Source: Symbiodinium natans
Lineage: Eukaryota > Sar > Dinophyceae > Suessiales > Symbiodiniaceae
Reading direction: 5' to 3'
DNA: 64,000 nucleotides
Assembly: GCA_905221605.1 (NCBI GenBank)
Contig: CAJNDS010000413.1
Location: 62,001 to 126,000, forward strand
Each line of letters begins with the position of its first letter. Position 1 is the stretch's first letter. The notes below the pieces were generated by a model. The model had not been told where the DNA came from. It saw nothing but the letters and a program-made list of their open reading frames with translations, and did not search any database. Made by a program: the position numbers and the translations under genes. This document shows, piece after piece, positions 3,516 through 38,499 of the stretch.

Positions 3516-6219
3516 CTACAAGTAGCGCAGGCTGAGGCGGCCTCCTTCGTTGAGCGCGGCGATCTCCAGGCTCTGAGTGTCCATGGCGAGTCGGGAAATC
3601 GGCAGTCGGAGAATCGCTTCGATCTTGCCCTCAGCTTCCTGGTGGCAGCAGAGGGTTTAGGGTTTAGGGTTTAGGGTTTAGGGTTTCCGAACTTGAGATT
3701 GCAGCCACAGATCCTCGCCCCTACTAGTGCGGACGGCACATGGATGGCCAATAAGCGCACCTTTTTGTCCCCAAGAAGAGGTTTCGACGGATTTCGACGG
3801 AGCCATCAAGGCTCTTAAGGATACGCCATGGCGGGTCGAGGCCTCAGGCCTGGACCCACAGCATTCCGGGAGTTCGACGAGGGGCTTCGGACAGCCTCGT
3901 GGACCACACGAAGGTGGCACTGCCTTTGTGCCTTTTACGTGGGGGGGCTTTACGACCCACTTACACTAAGTTGGCACTTAAGTGCCTGTTTCTTGTTAAA
4001 TTTACGGAAGGCCCCCCCCATTTCAAGCCACCACGGTGGGAGGAACATAGGGGCAAGGCAAGCCCGGGGGGTAAGCGGGAGAAAACACGCCATCCATGCA
4101 GCAGCTCGAGGCGCAGGCCTCCGCCGGCGCCGCGGGTGGCACCGCCTTTAGACTGAACTTGGAACCCTGGCAAAAAATCAGAATTTCTTATGCTGTTTCT
4201 TATGGGAATTATCGTCCCCAAAAGTAAAAAGAGAATATTCCCCAAGGCATCACAAAGCTGCGTGGTACCAGGAGGTGGAGAAAATGGGAGACCCTGGCTG
4301 CAAGAACACATCCGTGCATGGCCGCGCGGCGGGAGCAGGGCCCTTGTAGACAAGCTCAACCGGGTCAGTGGAGAAGATTGTTCCTATACTCCCCTTGGAA
4401 CCTTAATAAAAATAATATGTTTTTAATCCTCTTGGGTTTTTATATAAACAAAAAATAAAAAAAGTCCCAAGGGGGATGTAGGTTCCTTTGCAGGCGTCGA
4501 TGGATGCCGACAGCTCGTCTTTCGGCTTGCCCAAGGCAGCAATGTAGCATTCGATCCGCTTCACGATCCTCCACTCTGCCTTCGCGGCCACTTCTGTCTG
4601 CTTTCCCATGCTTTGGATGTCCTGGTAGATGTCCGCCTTCTCCGCATAGCACTTCGAGAACTTGCTACAAGTAAATGTCTTGTGTACCTCACAGGATCGC
4701 TGCTCGAATGCTGCCTGCTGCGTTGAGCACTCAAGCCTTCTGTCCCAGTAGTGGCACATCAACTGCTTGCAAAGCTCCATGTTCTTGAAGGGTGTTGTTG
4801 AGGCATTTTGGCATTTCAGCCGCTTTTCCACCACTGCCTGGTACTCACCCTTGAAGTGAGCAGCCATGCCTTTCAGGTAGTTGCCAATCGTTGGAACTGG
4901 CGTGCCCAACTGCATGACACAGGTACTCGTTGGGTCCGGGAGTGTCTGGGCCTGCACATAGTTGTTGCAGATTGCTTGGATCCGCTCTGCATAGATCTTC
5001 CAACCGACGACGCACGTGGTCTGGAAGTCTGCGTACAGGTCGGCTTCCGACTGCCGGCACTGAATATGCTGGGCATCCAGGTCTGCCAGCTCTTCGACGT
5101 AGTGGGTGTCATTGGGCTGAATACAGGTACTCAGGTTCTGCCACGCCTCATCGAGATCCATCTGGGTCCTAGTTCATGGTTCGGAGAGTATTCAAAAATT
5201 TCGATTTCTATCCTTATTGAGTTTAAGTAGCCTTAAGTATATATATATATGTATATATATATGTATATATATATATGTATATATATATGTATATATATAT
5301 ATATATATATATGTAAAGTGTTGCCCCACTACGGCAAAGTGTCTGGTTCATGCGCTGCAGGATGTTCTGCTTCATGCTGGAGTCGATGAGCCGCTGGATC
5401 TCCTTCTCGGTGGCCCAGTAACCCTATTCTAACAAGGGCACCCTTTTTTTTGGTTTGGTTACTTTATAGGGCACCCTTGAAGCCCCAAAAAAAAACTTTT
5501 TGGGTTACTTTGTTATAGGGCACCCTTGAACCCCCCCCCCCCCCCAAAAAAAAAAAAACACTTTTTTGGGGTTACTTTATTATCGGGGAACCTTGAACCC
5601 CAAAACGAAACCTTTTTTGGTTACTTTATTATAAGGGAACCTTGAACCCCCCCCCCCCCCAAAAAACAAAAAAAAAAAAAAAGAGGAAACAACTTTATAG
5701 GGGAACCTTGAACCAACAAAAAAAGGGAAAAAAGGGTACCACTGGATCCATCAAGCCTTCAAGAAAGCGGTCAGGTTCGTGGAGGCAGAGGTGCCTTGGG
5801 ACTGGAGCCTTGCCACGTTCAGGACCGACTTCTCCATGTTCCTATGCTGAGTCAACTCGGAGCCCTAGCAAAAATTAAAAAAATGCTTGCTGTTTCTTAG
5901 AAATTGAAGTGCTCAAAGTTAAGAAAAGATTTCTTAACATCCCCAAGGTTCGAGAGGGTGGCCTTCTCTGGCGCCATGGACTTCATGCGCGCCGACATCC
6001 GAAGCTCGGCAGACGTCATCTTCGTCTTCCGCAAGGTAGCTGCATTCCTTAGTAGCCCAGTAAGCATCTTATAATTTAATAAGGGCACCCTTTCTTGGGT
6101 TGGTTACTTTATGAGGGAACCTTGAACCCCAAAAACAGGGAAAAGGGTACCACTGGGCTAGCAAGATTCAGGCAGAGGAAGGAGCTCACAAGGAGCAGGT
6201 TCCAGAGCCAAATCTTCAT
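3516..6219 (-). CDS. Secreted Cys-rich protein, nine short exons split by introner-like introns
   Basis: Modelled minus-strand exons: 6219-6159, 6039-5952, 5841-5757, 5405-5325, 5161-4486, 4383-4254, 4152-4029, 3923 to about 3840, 3638-3516 (stop TAG). Exon 1 starts MKIWLWNLLLVSSFLCLNLA, a clear signal peptide. The large fifth exon (225 codons) has about 16 Cys and reads as helical, Cys-spaced sequence; exons 7 and 8 carry SSCCMDG and ELPECCG. The frame runs through exons 1-8 if the donors are GC, GA, GC, GC, GA, GT and GC, each with AG at the acceptor. The exon 8 donor is unsure; GAG|GCC would be in phase. A GA-AG intron also seems to interrupt the 5' UTR (about 6223-6320). No family recognised; a secreted or cell-surface role is inferred from the leader and the Cys content. 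The exon 4/5 boundary is the least certain of the others. Confidence 0.6.
3653..3687. repeat. TTTAGGG telomere-like tract
   Basis: Four to five uninterrupted GGGTTTA units, lying between the last two modelled exons of the Cys-rich gene. Confidence 0.95.
4153..4253 (-). mobile_element. Introner-like intron, GT-AG (family B)
   Basis: Minus-strand intron of 101 nt beginning GTGATGCCTTGGGG and ending AGGGTTCCAAGTTCAG. CCTTGGGGAA near the start is inverted as TTCCAAG near the end. It shares motifs (GTTTCTTA, CTAGGGTTCCAAG) with the copies at 5842-5951 and 16142-16241. Confidence 0.7.
4384..4485 (-). mobile_element. Introner-like intron, GA-AG (family A)
   Basis: 102-nt intron starting GAACCTACATCCCCCTTGGG and ending TTCCAAGGGGAGTATAG. 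The next exon starts GAAC, so GAAC occurs at both edges, as a target-site duplication would give. A second copy at about 6223-6320 has the same ends with GAAT at both edges. Confidence 0.75.
5237..5312. repeat. (TA)n microsatellite
   Basis: TATATATG/TA repeats inside the modelled intron between exons 4 and 5 of the Cys-rich gene. Confidence 0.95.
5406..5756 (-). mobile_element. Intron-borne element with internal tandem repeats and C-run/A-run tracts (family C)
   Basis: Bounded by CCAGTGGTACCC and GGTTACTGG on the minus strand. Inside are about four copies of a unit containing TTACTTTATTATAGGGAACCTTGAACC; two units carry long C runs followed by A runs. A shorter, simpler copy with the same ends lies at 6040-6158 in the first intron of the same gene. 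Confidence 0.7.
5842..5951 (-). mobile_element. Introner-like intron, GA-AG
   Basis: 110-nt intron beginning GAACCTTGGGGATG and ending ACTCAGCATAG, followed by GAAC in the next exon. It combines the GAAC edges of family A with the interior of family B. Confidence 0.65.
6040..6158 (-). mobile_element. Introner-like intron (family C, short copy)
   Basis: Carries inverted ends AGCCCAGT and ACTGGGCT and one TTGAACCCCAAAAA unit. Interrupts the Cys-rich gene directly after the signal-peptide exon. Confidence 0.65.
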
Positions 6220-6222
6220 TCC

Positions 6223-6320
6223 TATACTCCCCTTAGAACCTCAATAAAAACACTATCTTTCATACCCTCCTGGGTTTTATATACACAAAAACAAAAAATA
6301 GTTCCCAAGGGGGATGGAGA
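6223..6320 (-). mobile_element. Introner-like intron in the 5' UTR, GA-AG (family A)
   Basis: Begins GAATCTCCATCCCCCTTGGG and ends TTCTAAGGGGAGTATAG directly before GAATG, where ATG is the start codon of the Cys-rich gene. Near-identical ends to 4384-4485. Confidence 0.7.
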
Positions 6321-6416
6321 TTCTGGGTCTCGGGGCTGTCCCTCGAGACTGGGAGCTGCCGCTGTCAGCTCCCACATTCTCGAGCCACGACGCTTTGCAG
6401 GGCACAGAAGAAGCAG

Positions 6417-6610: not shown

Positions 6611-6679
<69 letters not shown>

Positions 6680-13883: not shown

Positions 13884-16491
13884 TCAGCAGCCTGCAATGC
13901 CCGGCGTGTCGACAATCTCAGATTTCTTTGCGCCGCAATACCCGACCATTCCACTTGAGTAAAGAGAGTAGTCTCGTGATCCACACGAAATTTCCCTGGC
14001 ATTGTAGCCCTTATCCGCGAATGGTCCGATGTTCTCTGTGCGGTCGCCGTAGAAATGCACTTTGTTTGCCGGGATGGTGACGCCCTGCTTCGCGTACCAG
14101 GACACGATGCCCTCAGCAGCCTTTGGGAAATGATCGGCGTACATGCGATGTTACCCACATGTTACTGCTGTTGGTATCACTGTTCGGTCAGCAAGCTACT
14201 CGTACAGCTGAATATCTCTAAGATCTCGAAGTTCGTCGTGCACCGAATCTACATGGAAGTGCATAGCTAAGGACATGCAGAGCACTCTCATTTCAGCTGG
14301 GGGTCGTTTTGCTTCTCCCGGTTCGGCCATCCGAGAACGAGTGGTGAATCCACTGCTGGATAATCGGACCAAGCAGACCTCGCTAAACATGGGCATCAGT
14401 ACCACAAGTAGACTTCATGGGGCTGTTCATACTTCCGCAGCAGTCCCAGACCCACATGATTTAAGATCTGATGCCAGGGCACGCTTGGCTGTTCTCGGAT
14501 TTCATCTTGTTGAACTTCTCACTGTTCAGAACATTGTCCAGGAGAAACGGCCTTTCTGGTGAGTGATGGCCCCCCGCATCGCCTGCTGACACAACACCCA
14601 AGTAGCAGGAGTTGCAGAAGGTCTCCGGCAACTTCTGCGCAGCCTCCGAGAGAGTGAGCCAGCCTCCGCCATAAGCCGTGTCCCAGATGCTTGATTCCAA
14701 CTTATTGTCTGGACAGGTTGAGACGTCACCCTGCTTACCGGTCAGAGTCCTGTCAATGTCGAAGATGCACACGCAGTCCTCTGTGGGCGTGGGCGGTTGC
14801 GTGGGCGGTGGCGGGGGCAGGGGTGTGGGGTCACTGCAAACGGCGACGCCCTTGGCATCCACGATTTCGTCCTGCGGCGCGGCTGACTGTCACATGTGTG
14901 GCCCTTCAATCTTTCCACATGTGCCGGAAGCATGGGGCATAGTTCTGGGTTGAGGATTAGCATGATACATGTGGGCTGCTGAGCTGCCAAGCGGCAGTTG
15001 TTGCGCCGCAAAACCCGACAATGCCGTTGCCAATGCTCATGTCACGAGAAGCGCAGGAAATCTCACGAGCATTGAAGGCTGTAGCGCTGAAGGGAGGGAT
15101 GTTCTCAGTGCGATCACCGTAGAAGTACACGTCTGTGTCCGCCACTTGGATGCCCTGCTGCTCGTACCACGCGACGATGCCAGCAACGGCATTCTGCTTC
15201 TCCCGATCAGGCCACCCAAGAACCTCGAGCGCCAACTCAAGCAGCACTCAAGCAGCACAGACTACACGTTGCTCAACCCAGGTCTGCCCGGGAGAAAAAG
15301 CAAACAGCACAAGAGCCAGAAGGGTTTGCTTAACGTCTCTTAGTAGCCAGCGGCGAATGCACGGCCCCGACGGACCAGTGGGAAGCCCGGTTGTTTGAGG
15401 AGAGCAATGCCTGGAAGGGCTCCCCAACAAGCACATTCTGAAGCAAGTAAGTTCGCTCCTGGGAATTCCGCCCGCTGGCCATTCCAGCGGAAACGATGCC
15501 CATGTAGCACTTGTTGCAGAACGTGTTCTTGAGGTTCTGGCCGGCCTCAGAAATCGTCAGCCAGCCCCCACTGTACGCAGTGTCCCAAATTCCGTAGATC
15601 TGCTTGTCGTTTGGGCACTGGTTTCCGGCGGTGCCTTGCTTTCCCGTCAGCGTCCGGTCCACGTCGAAGATGCAAAGACAGGCGGGCCCAGTTCCGGGAG
15701 GCATCGTTGGAGGCTCGGGGGCATCTGCTGGATCATAGCAATAATCAAAATTCGGAATGCCGACTCCTGAGCATCCGGGCACCGTCGTGACCCCGGACCT
15801 CTGGAAGCAGCGGAGTCCCGAGGCACAGTCCCCATCATCGTCACAGTCTCCAGCGCACTTCGGCATGTTGGTGGAACCATGCTGCCCATAGGTGCTGTCC
15901 AAGGGTGGCAGGCCCGGCTCGCCATCTTCGCACTGCGGGTTGTAGCAGTAGTCCCAGTTTGGCCAGGAAACTCCACCGCTGCATCCGGGAACAGCCTCAC
16001 CAACATGCCTCTGCATGCACTTCAACCCAGCCGCGCAGTCATCATCTCCGTCACAGTCCCCTTGGCATTGTGCCATGCTGATACCGCCGTTCGGACCAGG
16101 GCTGCTGTCGAACGGAAGGGTCTGGCACTCGGAACTGGCACCTGGACTTGGAACCCTAGCAACAAATCTAATGTTACTGTAGCCGTTTCTTAGTCTTAGC
16201 AAGTAGAGTCCGAAAACTATTCCCAAGTATCCCGAAGGCACTGGGAAGAGCAGGCGCCGGCTGGGCCGGCTCCGCCGGCTCCGCCGGCTGGGCCGAGCGC
16301 TCCTCCGCAGGCTCCCCAGGCTCCGCAGGCTGGGAGGCCTGGGAGGCCTGGGAGGCCTGGGAGGGCTGGGAGGGCTGGGAGGCCTTGCGCAGGTTGCTGC
16401 TGGCCTGCGTGGGCTTCGTGGCGGCCGAGTTGGGCTCACCGACCGTCAGCCATGCCATGGCCAAGCCCATCAGGAGCTTCAACATCATCAT
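13884..16491 (-). CDS. Secreted protein with two Cys-rich repeats and two HAD-like domains (complete gene model)
   Basis: Exons 16491-16242, 16141-15348, 15223-15007, 14882-14483, 14378-14306 and 14120-13884 give an unbroken 656-codon frame from ATG to TGA. Introns (100, 124, 124, 104 and 185 nt) are GT-AG, GC-AG, GC-AG, GT-AG and GA-AG. Order: signal peptide MMMLKLLMGLAMAWLTVGE (1-19); Pro/Ala/Gln/Ser-rich linker (to about 80); two Cys-rich repeats of the form C-GDCD-DDDCA-GL-C-QR (about 85-235); HAD-like unit 1 (FDVDRTLTGKQ near 245, FYGDRTENI, REISC); HAD-like unit 2 (FDIDRTLTGKQ near 463, FYGDRTENI, REISC). In each unit DxDxT fits HAD motif I, Ser in VSAG motif II, Lys in REKQ motif III and GDR motif IV. 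The units are a tandem duplication: exon edges agree near LGWPxREKQ. A phosphohydrolase role outside the cytosol is inferred; the substrate is unknown. A pyrimidine-rich CTTCTGCAG near 16553 could accept the spliced leader. Confidence 0.8.
16142..16241 (-). mobile_element. Introner-like intron, GT-AG (family B)
   Basis: 100 nt, starts GTGCCTTCGGGATACTTGGG, ends TAGGGTTCCAAGTCCAG. GTGCC occurs at the start of the intron and of the next exon. It is first intron of the HAD-like gene; similar to 4153-4253 and 5842-5951. Confidence 0.75.
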
Positions 16492-20046: not shown

Positions 20047-21140
20047 CTGACAGGCCAATCCAAGGCTGGCGGCTTTGACTTCTGGGCAACGGAAGCCTTG
20101 CAGGATAGTTTCCCGGGATGTGCTGGTGAACTTATGACACGGTTGGACGCAAGATCCTCTTGGGTTAGTGAATCTCGGGTGGAGCCTGAAGCATGGCTTT
20201 CCTGGCAGAAGAATGCACCAACCAGTGGTCTTCTTGCACAATGTACAACTTTGTGGGGCACACCGTCCTGTACCTACCACAAACATGCACCAGCAATGTG
20301 CGCCCGGCTTCTCCACCGCGGCGTTCACCTTGGGCCAGAGCCTTGGCGAGCAATCTATCCCCTCGAGCCACCTTAAGGCCTTGTTAACTCCCCTTTTGGC
20401 TCCCCTAAACTACTCTACATGAAACTTCTCAAAGCCCTTGCACATCCCCATGTAGCTTCCCCTGAGTCCCTTTTTTTGGTTTGGGGGCGTCAGTTGCTCT
20501 CAACCCTGGAAAAACCAGGAGTGAGACGTGGGTTTGGAGGCTCTTTTTGGCATGAGGCGCGGCCAAATCTTGCTGTGACTTTCATGCAGGGGGACCCTGT
20601 GCCAGCACCGTGACACAACATCTTGCTTGTGCCTTCGAAGCTTACAAACCAAGCCCAAACCGAGCTCTTGCGGATATTCCCGGAGACCCCAATCTGAATT
20701 GAAGGCGTTCAAACAAAAACACCCCCCCCCCCCAGAACTCGATATTCCTTCCTTCTGTGCGGACTTCTTGAATGCCAGCAGCAATCCCAATTCATAATAT
20801 CTTACATCATGGCTGGGAGGTGATGTCAGTTAATCCTAATTCTACTTGTTGCATCCGGAACTTCCTTACTAGTTCATGGTTGGGATAGTATTAAAAAATT
20901 TAAATCTATCTTCCTTATTGGGTTTAAGTACCCTTAAGAATGACAAAGCCTAGTTGCATCCAGGACTATGCAGTTCTTGCGTATTCCTGAATACAACCGG
21001 GACTGTTGAGCCCATGCCGCCAATGTCACAGCACTCGTGGCATCACACCCTCCATAGTAGTTTCGTAAATCCCTAGACCCTTTTTCTGGACTATTTCCTT
21101 TTTTACACCTGGACTTGCTGAATACCAGCACCGCCGTTGT
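20047..21140. other. Probable 5' part of the SMP gene plus repeats
   Basis: Minus-strand frames near 20180-20360 (CPTKLYIVQEDHWLVHSS) and 20700-20790 (GLLLAFKKSAQKEG) look exon-like but could not be joined. The segment 20865-20945 is a family-D copy (AAGGGTACTTAAACCCAATAAGG to CCCAACCATGAACTAG on the minus strand), which hints at an exon edge there. Confidence 0.35.
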
Positions 21141-36993: not shown

Positions 36994-38499
36994 TTACAGC
37001 CTTGCAGTCTGCAAGCGGTGCTGGATGCACTGCGAGAGATGCTTCGCGTCCTGACTCTTGAAGCTTCCACTGTGATGGTAGAACCAACTCTCCAATCCAC
37101 CAGGGTAAGACTTGAAAGAGACCACACAATTCCTGGGCCCATGCTTGGGAGAGCATGAAAAAACATAAATTCCTATTCCTTATTGAGTTGAAGTACCCTT
37201 AAAAACATGTAGTAGAACGTTACCCCACTATCACACAAAGGTTCGAGTTCAGGACGCCAGCCACCCAGGAGAAGCTGCTTGGGGCCTGCACAAGAACATC
37301 TGCCTGAGCCATGTGTGCCAGATCACCCAGCTCATCACCATTCAAGTGTACCTAGCTTTCATGGTTGGGATAATACAAAAAATATCCAAAGAAAAACACG
37401 TGGCTCATTCCTTATTAGGTTCATTAAGTACCCTGAAAGGTTTTTTAAATGCTACCCAAACTATGAGAAAGGTACCGTCATGCCGGCAGCCTCAAAGGCC
37501 TCGAAGTCGCTGCTTGCGTGCGTTCCCTCCTTGGTGGTGCTGAAGACGTGGATGTCGGTCAAGCCATGGGCCATCTCTTTGATGGCCCTTGCAACCTGGA
37601 GGTAGACGTTGTTGGGCACATCACGGTTCGTCTGCCTCGAGACGTCGATGTCCCCCCGGCGAACATGGACGGCGACGCGGAGGGCGCGCTTGTCCTGGAG
37701 GAAGTAAGGGGTTGGCTGTGTGAGCAGCAGCGTGTGCTTTCTCAACTTCTCCAGGAAGTCCGGTGTCAAGAAACCGACGATGTCCTTGCCAAACCCGCAT
37801 TCCTGGAACAACACGTTCCGGCCGACGGGGGCGACGGTTTGATTCCCTCCCCCAAGGGTTGAGAGCAGAACGTGGCTACCGAAAAAGCAAGTATCAAAAC
37901 TGGCATGCCTCACCCGCTTCCGCAGGGCTGTGTAATCGGTACCCACAACGGCGCTCAAACAGGCATGTACGTCTGCACCATGAACTTCAGTGGAAGGGTG
38001 CGGAAGGAGGCCCCCGAAATTGAGCCCCAAGTGATTTGCAAGTGCCATCATCACAATGAGGTGGGCTGCCCTCTGCCCCATGCCGTCGAACCGCTCAATG
38101 CTGTACAACGCAGCCTCGGTTCGCCAACGACCCGGCAACCAACAAAAACGGGACTCCCTTTCTTGCCCCAGCAACTCTAGAAATCAACAAACCAGAGGAA
38201 AGGGCACCATTGAAGATCCTAGAGGCTGTGGCGCCAGGGGTGCTGCACAGAGGACAGTGCGCGGGGGTGATGGCAACATCCGGCATGGCCTTGGACATCT
38301 TTTTCATGCCGGCGGTGGGCCCATTGTGCATGGTGCCGAGCGTGTTCTGGCAGCTCACCTGCGGTACTGGAGGGCAGCCCAGGCCACTGCCTAGCTGTAG
38401 CAGCGAGTGGTCCTCACAGGCCTCAGCCCCTGAGGCCACCGCCAGGACCGCCGGCACCTGCAGCAATGCCAGGCTGGCCTGAGATGTGAGCAGCCTCAT
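36994..38499 (-). CDS. Secreted or Golgi fucosyltransferase-like enzyme (HVRRGD motif), complete gene model
   Basis: Exons 38499-38208, 38176-37476, 37351-37224 and 37132-36994 give 419 codons. N-terminal signal sequence (MRLLTSQASLALLQVPAVLA) with the EDHSLLQLG motif common after dinoflagellate leaders. The second exon has GMGQRAAHLIVMMALANHLG and VAVHVRRGDID, the basic motif that binds the nucleotide sugar in GT-B fucosyltransferases. The third has DLAHMAQADVLVQAPSSFSW, as in the C-terminal half of these enzymes. It likely transfers fucose to a glycan in the secretory pathway; acceptor unknown. The first intron would be only 31 nt (GT...CTAG); if it is not an intron, the gene has a frameshift there. 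The second and third introns are family-D elements; the donor of the third is ambiguous by a few bases (GT or GA). Confidence 0.7.
37133..37223 (-). mobile_element. Introner-like intron (family D), 91 nt
   Basis: Contains AAGGGTACTTCAACTCAATAAGG and ends CATGGGCCCAG. TTGTGTG occurs in both flanking exons, compatible with a target-site duplication. Confidence 0.7.
37352..37475 (-). mobile_element. Introner-like intron (family D), GT-AG, 124 nt
   Basis: Starts GTACCTTTCTCATAG, ends ATTATCCCAACCATGAAAGCTAG, and GTAC occurs at both edges. Removal joins ...AGMT to VHLNGDELGD in frame. Shares CAGGGTACTT...AATAAGGAAT with 37133-37223, 5162-5240 and 20865-20945. Confidence 0.8.

Follow-up and report, generated by a model that had tools for sequence, protein, structure and literature searches.

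The stretch analysed here, referred to as the window, comprises 64,000 nucleotides (nt) of Symbiodinium natans (assembly GCA_905221605.1, contig CAJNDS010000413.1, positions 62,001–126,000 of the forward strand), and our subject is a gene on its minus strand (coding sequence, CDS, 6219–4023) whose introns are repeated elements. In the gene segment 6323–4146 (minus strand) all seven placed introns belong to four element families, with two copies each of A, B and C and one of D. With every intron defined as a 4-nt upstream repeat, one copy of the target-site duplication (TSD), plus the repeated element, removal of all seven leaves a single frame of 405 amino acids (aa) that starts MKIWLWNLLLVSSFLCLNAATLRK and ends PPTVVA. 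Keeping any one intron of the CDS truncates the product, to 36 (C1), 66 (B1), 78 (C2), 136 (D1), 351 (A2) or 368 aa (B2); keeping A1, which precedes the ATG, leaves it unaltered. The original prediction held that at least six introns were elements of three families, one of them ahead of the coding region. The elements do sit exactly at introns and A1 does lie just upstream of the ATG, but the introns number seven and the families four.

Read along the minus strand, intron 1 (A1, 6222–6323) has a directly read TSD of GAAT/GAAT and GA–AG boundaries, and is followed by exon 2 (6170–6221), which contains the ATG (6219–6217) and an N-terminal hydrophobic leader, MKIWLWNLLLVSSFLCLN, judged as such by eye. 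Removal of the introns restores the frame through exons 3 (5952–6047), 4 (5760–5841), 5 (5344–5405), 6 (4486–5168, the main Cys-rich exon) and 7 (4262–4383), which are separated by intron 2 (C1, 6048–6169, TSD GAAT/GAAT, GA–AG, before exon 3), intron 3 (B1, 5842–5951, GAAC/GAAC, GA–AG), intron 4 (C2, 5406–5759, AAGG/AAGG), intron 5 (D1, 5169–5343, GACA/GACC, GA–AG) and intron 6 (A2, 4384–4485, GAAC/GAAC, GA–AG). Intron 7 (B2, 4146–4261, GCAG/GCGG, GC–AG) precedes exon 8, which runs to the stop codon (4023–4145; coordinates taken from the 406-codon frame, whose end fits the open frame there). For C2, the AAGG repeat suggests an alternative register (5756–5403), in which a GC–AG cut 3 nt downstream yields the identical product. 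Donors are thus GA in A1, C1, B1, D1 and A2 and GC in B2, with no GT donor in the gene. The predicted length of about 100–120 nt applies to most of these introns but not to C2, a long copy of 354 nt with an internal tandem duplication, or to D1, which reaches 175 nt because of an (AT)n expansion. A Pfam scan of the 405-aa protein returned nothing significant (best E 0.05). When five of the introns (A1, A2, B1, B2 and C1) were folded as RNA, the ends paired in A1, A2 and C1; C1 (z −3.6) and A2 (z −2.2) clearly beat shuffled sequences, with A1, B1 and B2 not clearly better than shuffles.

Element families, target-site duplications and donors

Searches of the genome (759 Mb; 759,417,921 bases in 2,543 contigs) with one window copy per family gave 2168 (A), 241 (B) and 2033 (C) candidates at first look, of which the top 40 per family were scored, and the resulting test set comprised 20 A, 29 B and 20 C copies after a 30th B locus (L028), the window's own copy, was dropped. 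The profile consensus reads CTATATCCCCCTTGGGAA...AAGGTTCTAAGGGGAGTATAG for family A, CTTAGGGGTACTTGGAA...GGTTCCAAGTTCAGTATAG for B (ends also written CTTAGGGGTACTTGG...GGTTCCAAGTTCAGTATAG) and CTTGGTAGCCCAGTGG...GGTTACTGGGCTACTAAG for C, while family D, found via the (AT)n intron, reads CTTTGTCATAGTGGGG...CCATGAACTAG in a profile built from five copies. Elements of all families run 5'-CT...AG-3', and the 3' ends of A and B are alike. The shared motifs first quoted for B and C do identify families with shared ends, although the true ends lie further out. The expected recurrence of each element throughout the genome, next to short direct repeats, was borne out: exact-ended copies on both strands number 630 (A), 54 (B), 151 (C) and 371 (D), and 4-bp direct repeats flank many of the A, B and C copies tested. 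Every reversed-pattern control gave 0, so these counts do not reflect chance, and they are lower bounds, since a single end mismatch drops a copy. Terminal inverted repeats (TIRs) were detected in A and C by comparison of the terminal 20 nt, with shuffles equally good in 11/2000 and 0/2000 cases, respectively, and B shows a ACTTGGAA pair in subterminal position. Partial-query matches to family C were considered as longer elements, but the five fetched (L102–L106), out of slightly more that were listed, proved to be short copies, length variants of the family.

The flanks of the test copies matched perfectly at all four positions in 13/20 (A), 14/29 (B) and 9/20 (C) cases, compared with 0.5%, 2.0% and 0.3% of cross-paired flanks, and at three or more positions in 16/20, 19/29 and 15/20. 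Across 68 copies, counted without the duplicate L038, every one of the four positions matched in 72–76% of cases versus 25–34% when cross-paired, and the positions adjoining them matched at background. As the match is confined to these four positions, the TSD is a 4-bp duplication external to the element. Reverse splicing is not known to leave a TSD. The GAAC/GAAT previously taken as the start of family A is in fact this duplication, which varies among A copies (for example, GCAC, GTTT, GCAT and CTCA). Among six family D copies examined by eye, the TSD is exact in three (GTCC, GTGT, GTAC), agrees at three of four bases in two and is unclear in one.

At the level of the sequence, the acceptor AG coincides with the element end and the donor with the TSD directly in every placed intron except C2, for which the 3-nt shift is needed. 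Fifty test copies have at least three matching TSD positions, of which 27 begin G[TCA] and 23 otherwise, none with GG. When the target was restored by removing the element and one TSD copy, the surrounding ±75 nt were open in the sense direction for 23/27 copies with a G[TCA] TSD, but for only 6/23 with another TSD and 7/19 without a TSD. This bias, which concerns the openness of the target rather than splicing, is strong (Fisher p 3.6e-5; 1e-5 with the duplicate pair L037/L038 counted once). Among the 23 open G[TCA] copies, the length of the intron is not a multiple of three in 18, and only 3 remain open if the element is kept.

The presence of several families in one gene is not peculiar to the gene studied here. 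Two or more families occur in 10 of 37 other 3-kb loci surveyed (L001–L008 and L029–L057, with an A match overlying the B copy of L036 not counted), namely L001, L005, L032, L035, L044, L047, L052, L053, L055 and L057, and the co-occurring families lie on the same strand in all 10; at L047 and L057 the second family gives only weak matches, with E between 5e-4 and 2e-5.

Filled sites, empty sites and relatives of the gene

Empty sites were sought in the genome with two queries of joined flanks that held 18 and 20 junctions. Together these represent 24 different junctions, each taken from one of the 27 G[TCA] copies, and contiguous relatives were recovered for four of them, covering families A, B and C. 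For L081 (C), such relatives occur at at least 17 other places among the matches listed, eight of them within one tandem array, and for L088 (C) several contigs carry them within tandem repeats. L058 (A) has a contiguous relative at C1832, and L032 (B) one at C569 with 74% identity, whose translation agrees across the junction. In the alignments, the sequence absent from each of 13 fetched relatives corresponds exactly to the element and 4 nt. At all four loci the frame of the spliced source is continuous over the junction (for example, GWTVVGHNNSV at L081).

A protein search of the genome with the 405-aa product retrieved distant paralogs only. One of these, L098 (C2517), has a single frame spanning the sites of C2, D1, A2 and B2, and in L099 (C1980) residues 13–347 are matched in one open frame (E 9e-6); the matched region is interrupted in L100 and L101. 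Judged from their frames, the single-frame paralogs fit a gain of introns in the studied gene.

Origin of the introns

We conclude, with a probability of roughly 0.9, that the seven introns are introners, that is, non-autonomous DNA transposons resembling miniature inverted-repeat transposable elements (MITEs), of four families, which inserted into the exons of the gene. The proposal that introners of several families act as the introns of one gene is supported, with agreement among the genome-wide copies, the 4-bp TSDs, the 405-aa frame and the four filled/empty pairs at other loci. Our confidence is high for the anatomy of the elements and for insertion as the mechanism, and lower for their splicing, which is predicted from sequence. 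Under this model each landing would duplicate 4 bp of the target, the terminal AG of the element would become the 3' splice site, and the upstream TSD copy would provide the 5' splice site wherever its first two bases are GA, GC or GT; for C2, the last TSD base and the first base of the element would together form the donor, with the GC–AG cut 3 nt further on. Splicing at these points would remove the element together with 4 nt and give back the original coding sequence, and the insertion would therefore be harmless to the protein. Copies on other targets would not be removable in this way, and most of them do lie outside open frames. Three parts of this model are inferred: use of the predicted splice points by the spliceosome, mobilisation of the elements by a transposase acting in trans, and insertion, as opposed to loss in its relatives, as the source of the gene's own seven introns.

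Several results weigh against this interpretation. No empty site was recovered for the remaining 20 of the 24 junctions, whose matches were either to their own flanks or one-sided (19 of them were in the second query, in which all 24 candidates were scored, and L031 only in the first, with the best 40 of 450 scored). Both single-frame relatives of the gene are only about 23–27% identical to it, no close empty-site paralog was found in the protein search, tblastn returned no alignment for L099, and intron loss by retroposition in these relatives is possible. Antisense frames are also frequently open around G[TCA] copies (16/27, against 8/23 with another TSD and 4/19 without one), and the copies used in the TSD test are the best matches to the window's own copies rather than a random sample. 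In the 20-nt end comparison, families B (465/2000) and D (245/2000) could not be separated from shuffles, and no transposase-bearing partner turned up, in work that included no systematic genome search for one.

It is improbable that the elements are ordinary MITEs that are never spliced and reside in a dead or non-expressed gene. That the same families also occur where no frame is open, and with TSDs not starting with G, is compatible with such passive residence. Against it stand a 405-codon frame that survives exactly upon removal of TSD plus element and is truncated by any retained CDS intron, an alignment in which 13 of the 18 Cys in the compared stretch of the window protein stand opposite Cys of L098, a paralog only 23% identical, and the strong bias of open targets to G[TCA] TSDs. 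Reverse splicing, an RNA-based route of spread put forward for introner-like elements of fungi (PMC9860276), is a very unlikely explanation: it would account for the equality of unit and intron length and for the common strand of families within a locus, whereas DNA transposition is indicated by the 4-bp TSDs outside the element and by the copies that lie at non-open sites and have TSDs not starting with G. Old spliceosomal introns made alike by gene duplication, or by repeats landing in existing introns, are the least credible source, as segmental duplicates do exist among the copies (L037/L038; L102/L103) but the flanks of the remainder look unrelated, TSDs vary by site, repeat and intron boundaries coincide in the studied gene, and what is missing from the relatives at four loci is precisely the element and 4 nt.

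Within the introner interpretation, a more far-reaching idea is tentative and, in our estimate, falls somewhat short of even odds. The whole placed intron set (7/7 introns, four families, no GT donor) may derive from elements moved by one transposase, an idea prompted by the CT...AG ends and 4-bp TSD common to the families; whether a copy becomes an intron could then depend almost entirely on the two target bases that it happens to meet (G, then A, C or T), and the GA and GC donors of these algae might be a by-product of transposition.

The elements are introners of an already known type and the principle is published. What the locus and its genome offer is a readable case of intron origin, with filled and empty sites within one genome, and a simple rule, a TSD that begins G[TCA], that parts copies in open targets from the rest; we claim no priority for the donor rule. 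A gene whose entire placed intron set is introner-derived could also serve as a test bed for the minimum of 5' splice-site information that the dinoflagellate spliceosome needs.

Further elements and comparison with known introners

At the profile (nhmmer) threshold, families A and C are restricted within the window to the studied gene, so that the predicted recurrence of the elements elsewhere in it holds for B and D only. Family B has one extra copy (16140–16237, TSD GTGC, GT–AG) and family D three (20869–20966, with no clear TSD read; 37133–37240, TSD GAAC/GAAT; 37352–37471, TSD GTAC, GT–AG), all on the minus strand. The D copies at 37133–37471 sit in an apparent second gene, in which an exon reads ...VHLNGDELGDLAHMAQADVLVQAPSSFSWVAGVLNSNCVV by eye. 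All 11 A–D elements of the window (14 nhmmer rows) are on the minus strand, as expected if the genes of the window share one direction. The window also contains a run of 67 C (6611–6677) and, throughout, many interstitial telomere-like arrays of the 7-bp unit AGGGTTT/AAACCCT.

The 14-mer GGGGAGTATAGGAA has 203 matches in the genome, a mixed set that was not used as a count of family A because the pairs examined belong to different elements. Ten inverted pairs about 19–21 kb apart among the first 100 places listed were considered as an autonomous partner of family A, and the seven examined are apparently Polinton-like: their terminal repeats start with AGTTAG, or with AGTCAG in one case, and carry the 14-mer about 60 nt in from the end. 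These elements (C199:136600–156000, C624:678700–698100, C1546:492400–511700, C585:68800–88700 and C264:112000–131999; loci L009–L016, L022 and L023) have long terminal inverted repeats and a TSD of about 5 bp (by eye in two), and proteins of two of them match the Pox_A32 ATPase, Peptidase_S74 and, at E values of 6e-6 and 7e-5 that fall short of Pfam's cut-off, the rve integrase; they are probably Polinton-like elements of a protist genome. At L017, L018, L019 and L021, similar terminal repeats lie 1–2 kb apart and resemble shortened non-autonomous derivatives of the 20-kb elements. The sequence TTCCTATACTCCCC in the terminal repeats of the latter (L009 at about 120 and equivalents) equals 14 nt of the introner A end and its GAA target (window 4381–4394), an identity that may reflect chance or a shared binding site.

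Introner elements are reported from P. cordatum in a study that tabulates S. natans among the taxa for comparison (PMC10666404). Those of Amoebophrya have inverted repeats at the intron ends and direct repeats of 3–5 nt over the exon/intron boundaries (Farhat et al. 2021, PMC7789003), and the introns described here resemble them in the direct repeats and, for families A and C, in the inverted repeats; splice dinucleotides in Amoebophrya are described as very variable (PMC7789003), whereas the introns of the studied gene can all be written with an AG acceptor and a GA or GC donor. GC/GA–AG boundaries are given as 25–74% in Symbiodiniaceae (PMC11453091). A close likeness is to Symbiodinium microadriaticum (Gozashti et al. 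2022, PMC9860276, Fig. 2B), whose introners have 4-bp TSDs and TIRs, bring a 3' splice site with them and obtain the 5' one from the duplicated target; the same source gives up to 43 introner families in one genome. Family 1 of that species, with an example of 115 nt, has the layout found here, the difference being that four families with this layout occur in one gene; the likeness is one of layout. With this anatomy published for Symbiodinium, with genomes of many families on record (PMC9860276, PMC11453091) and with families co-occurring at other loci of S. natans, the novelty implied by the original prediction is not supported. Roy et al. 2023, as summarised in PMC11453091, describe several families per dinoflagellate genome, recent activity and many introns gained, a summary that covers five genomes, with P. 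glacialis in detail, and the multiplicity of families in S. natans agrees with that picture.
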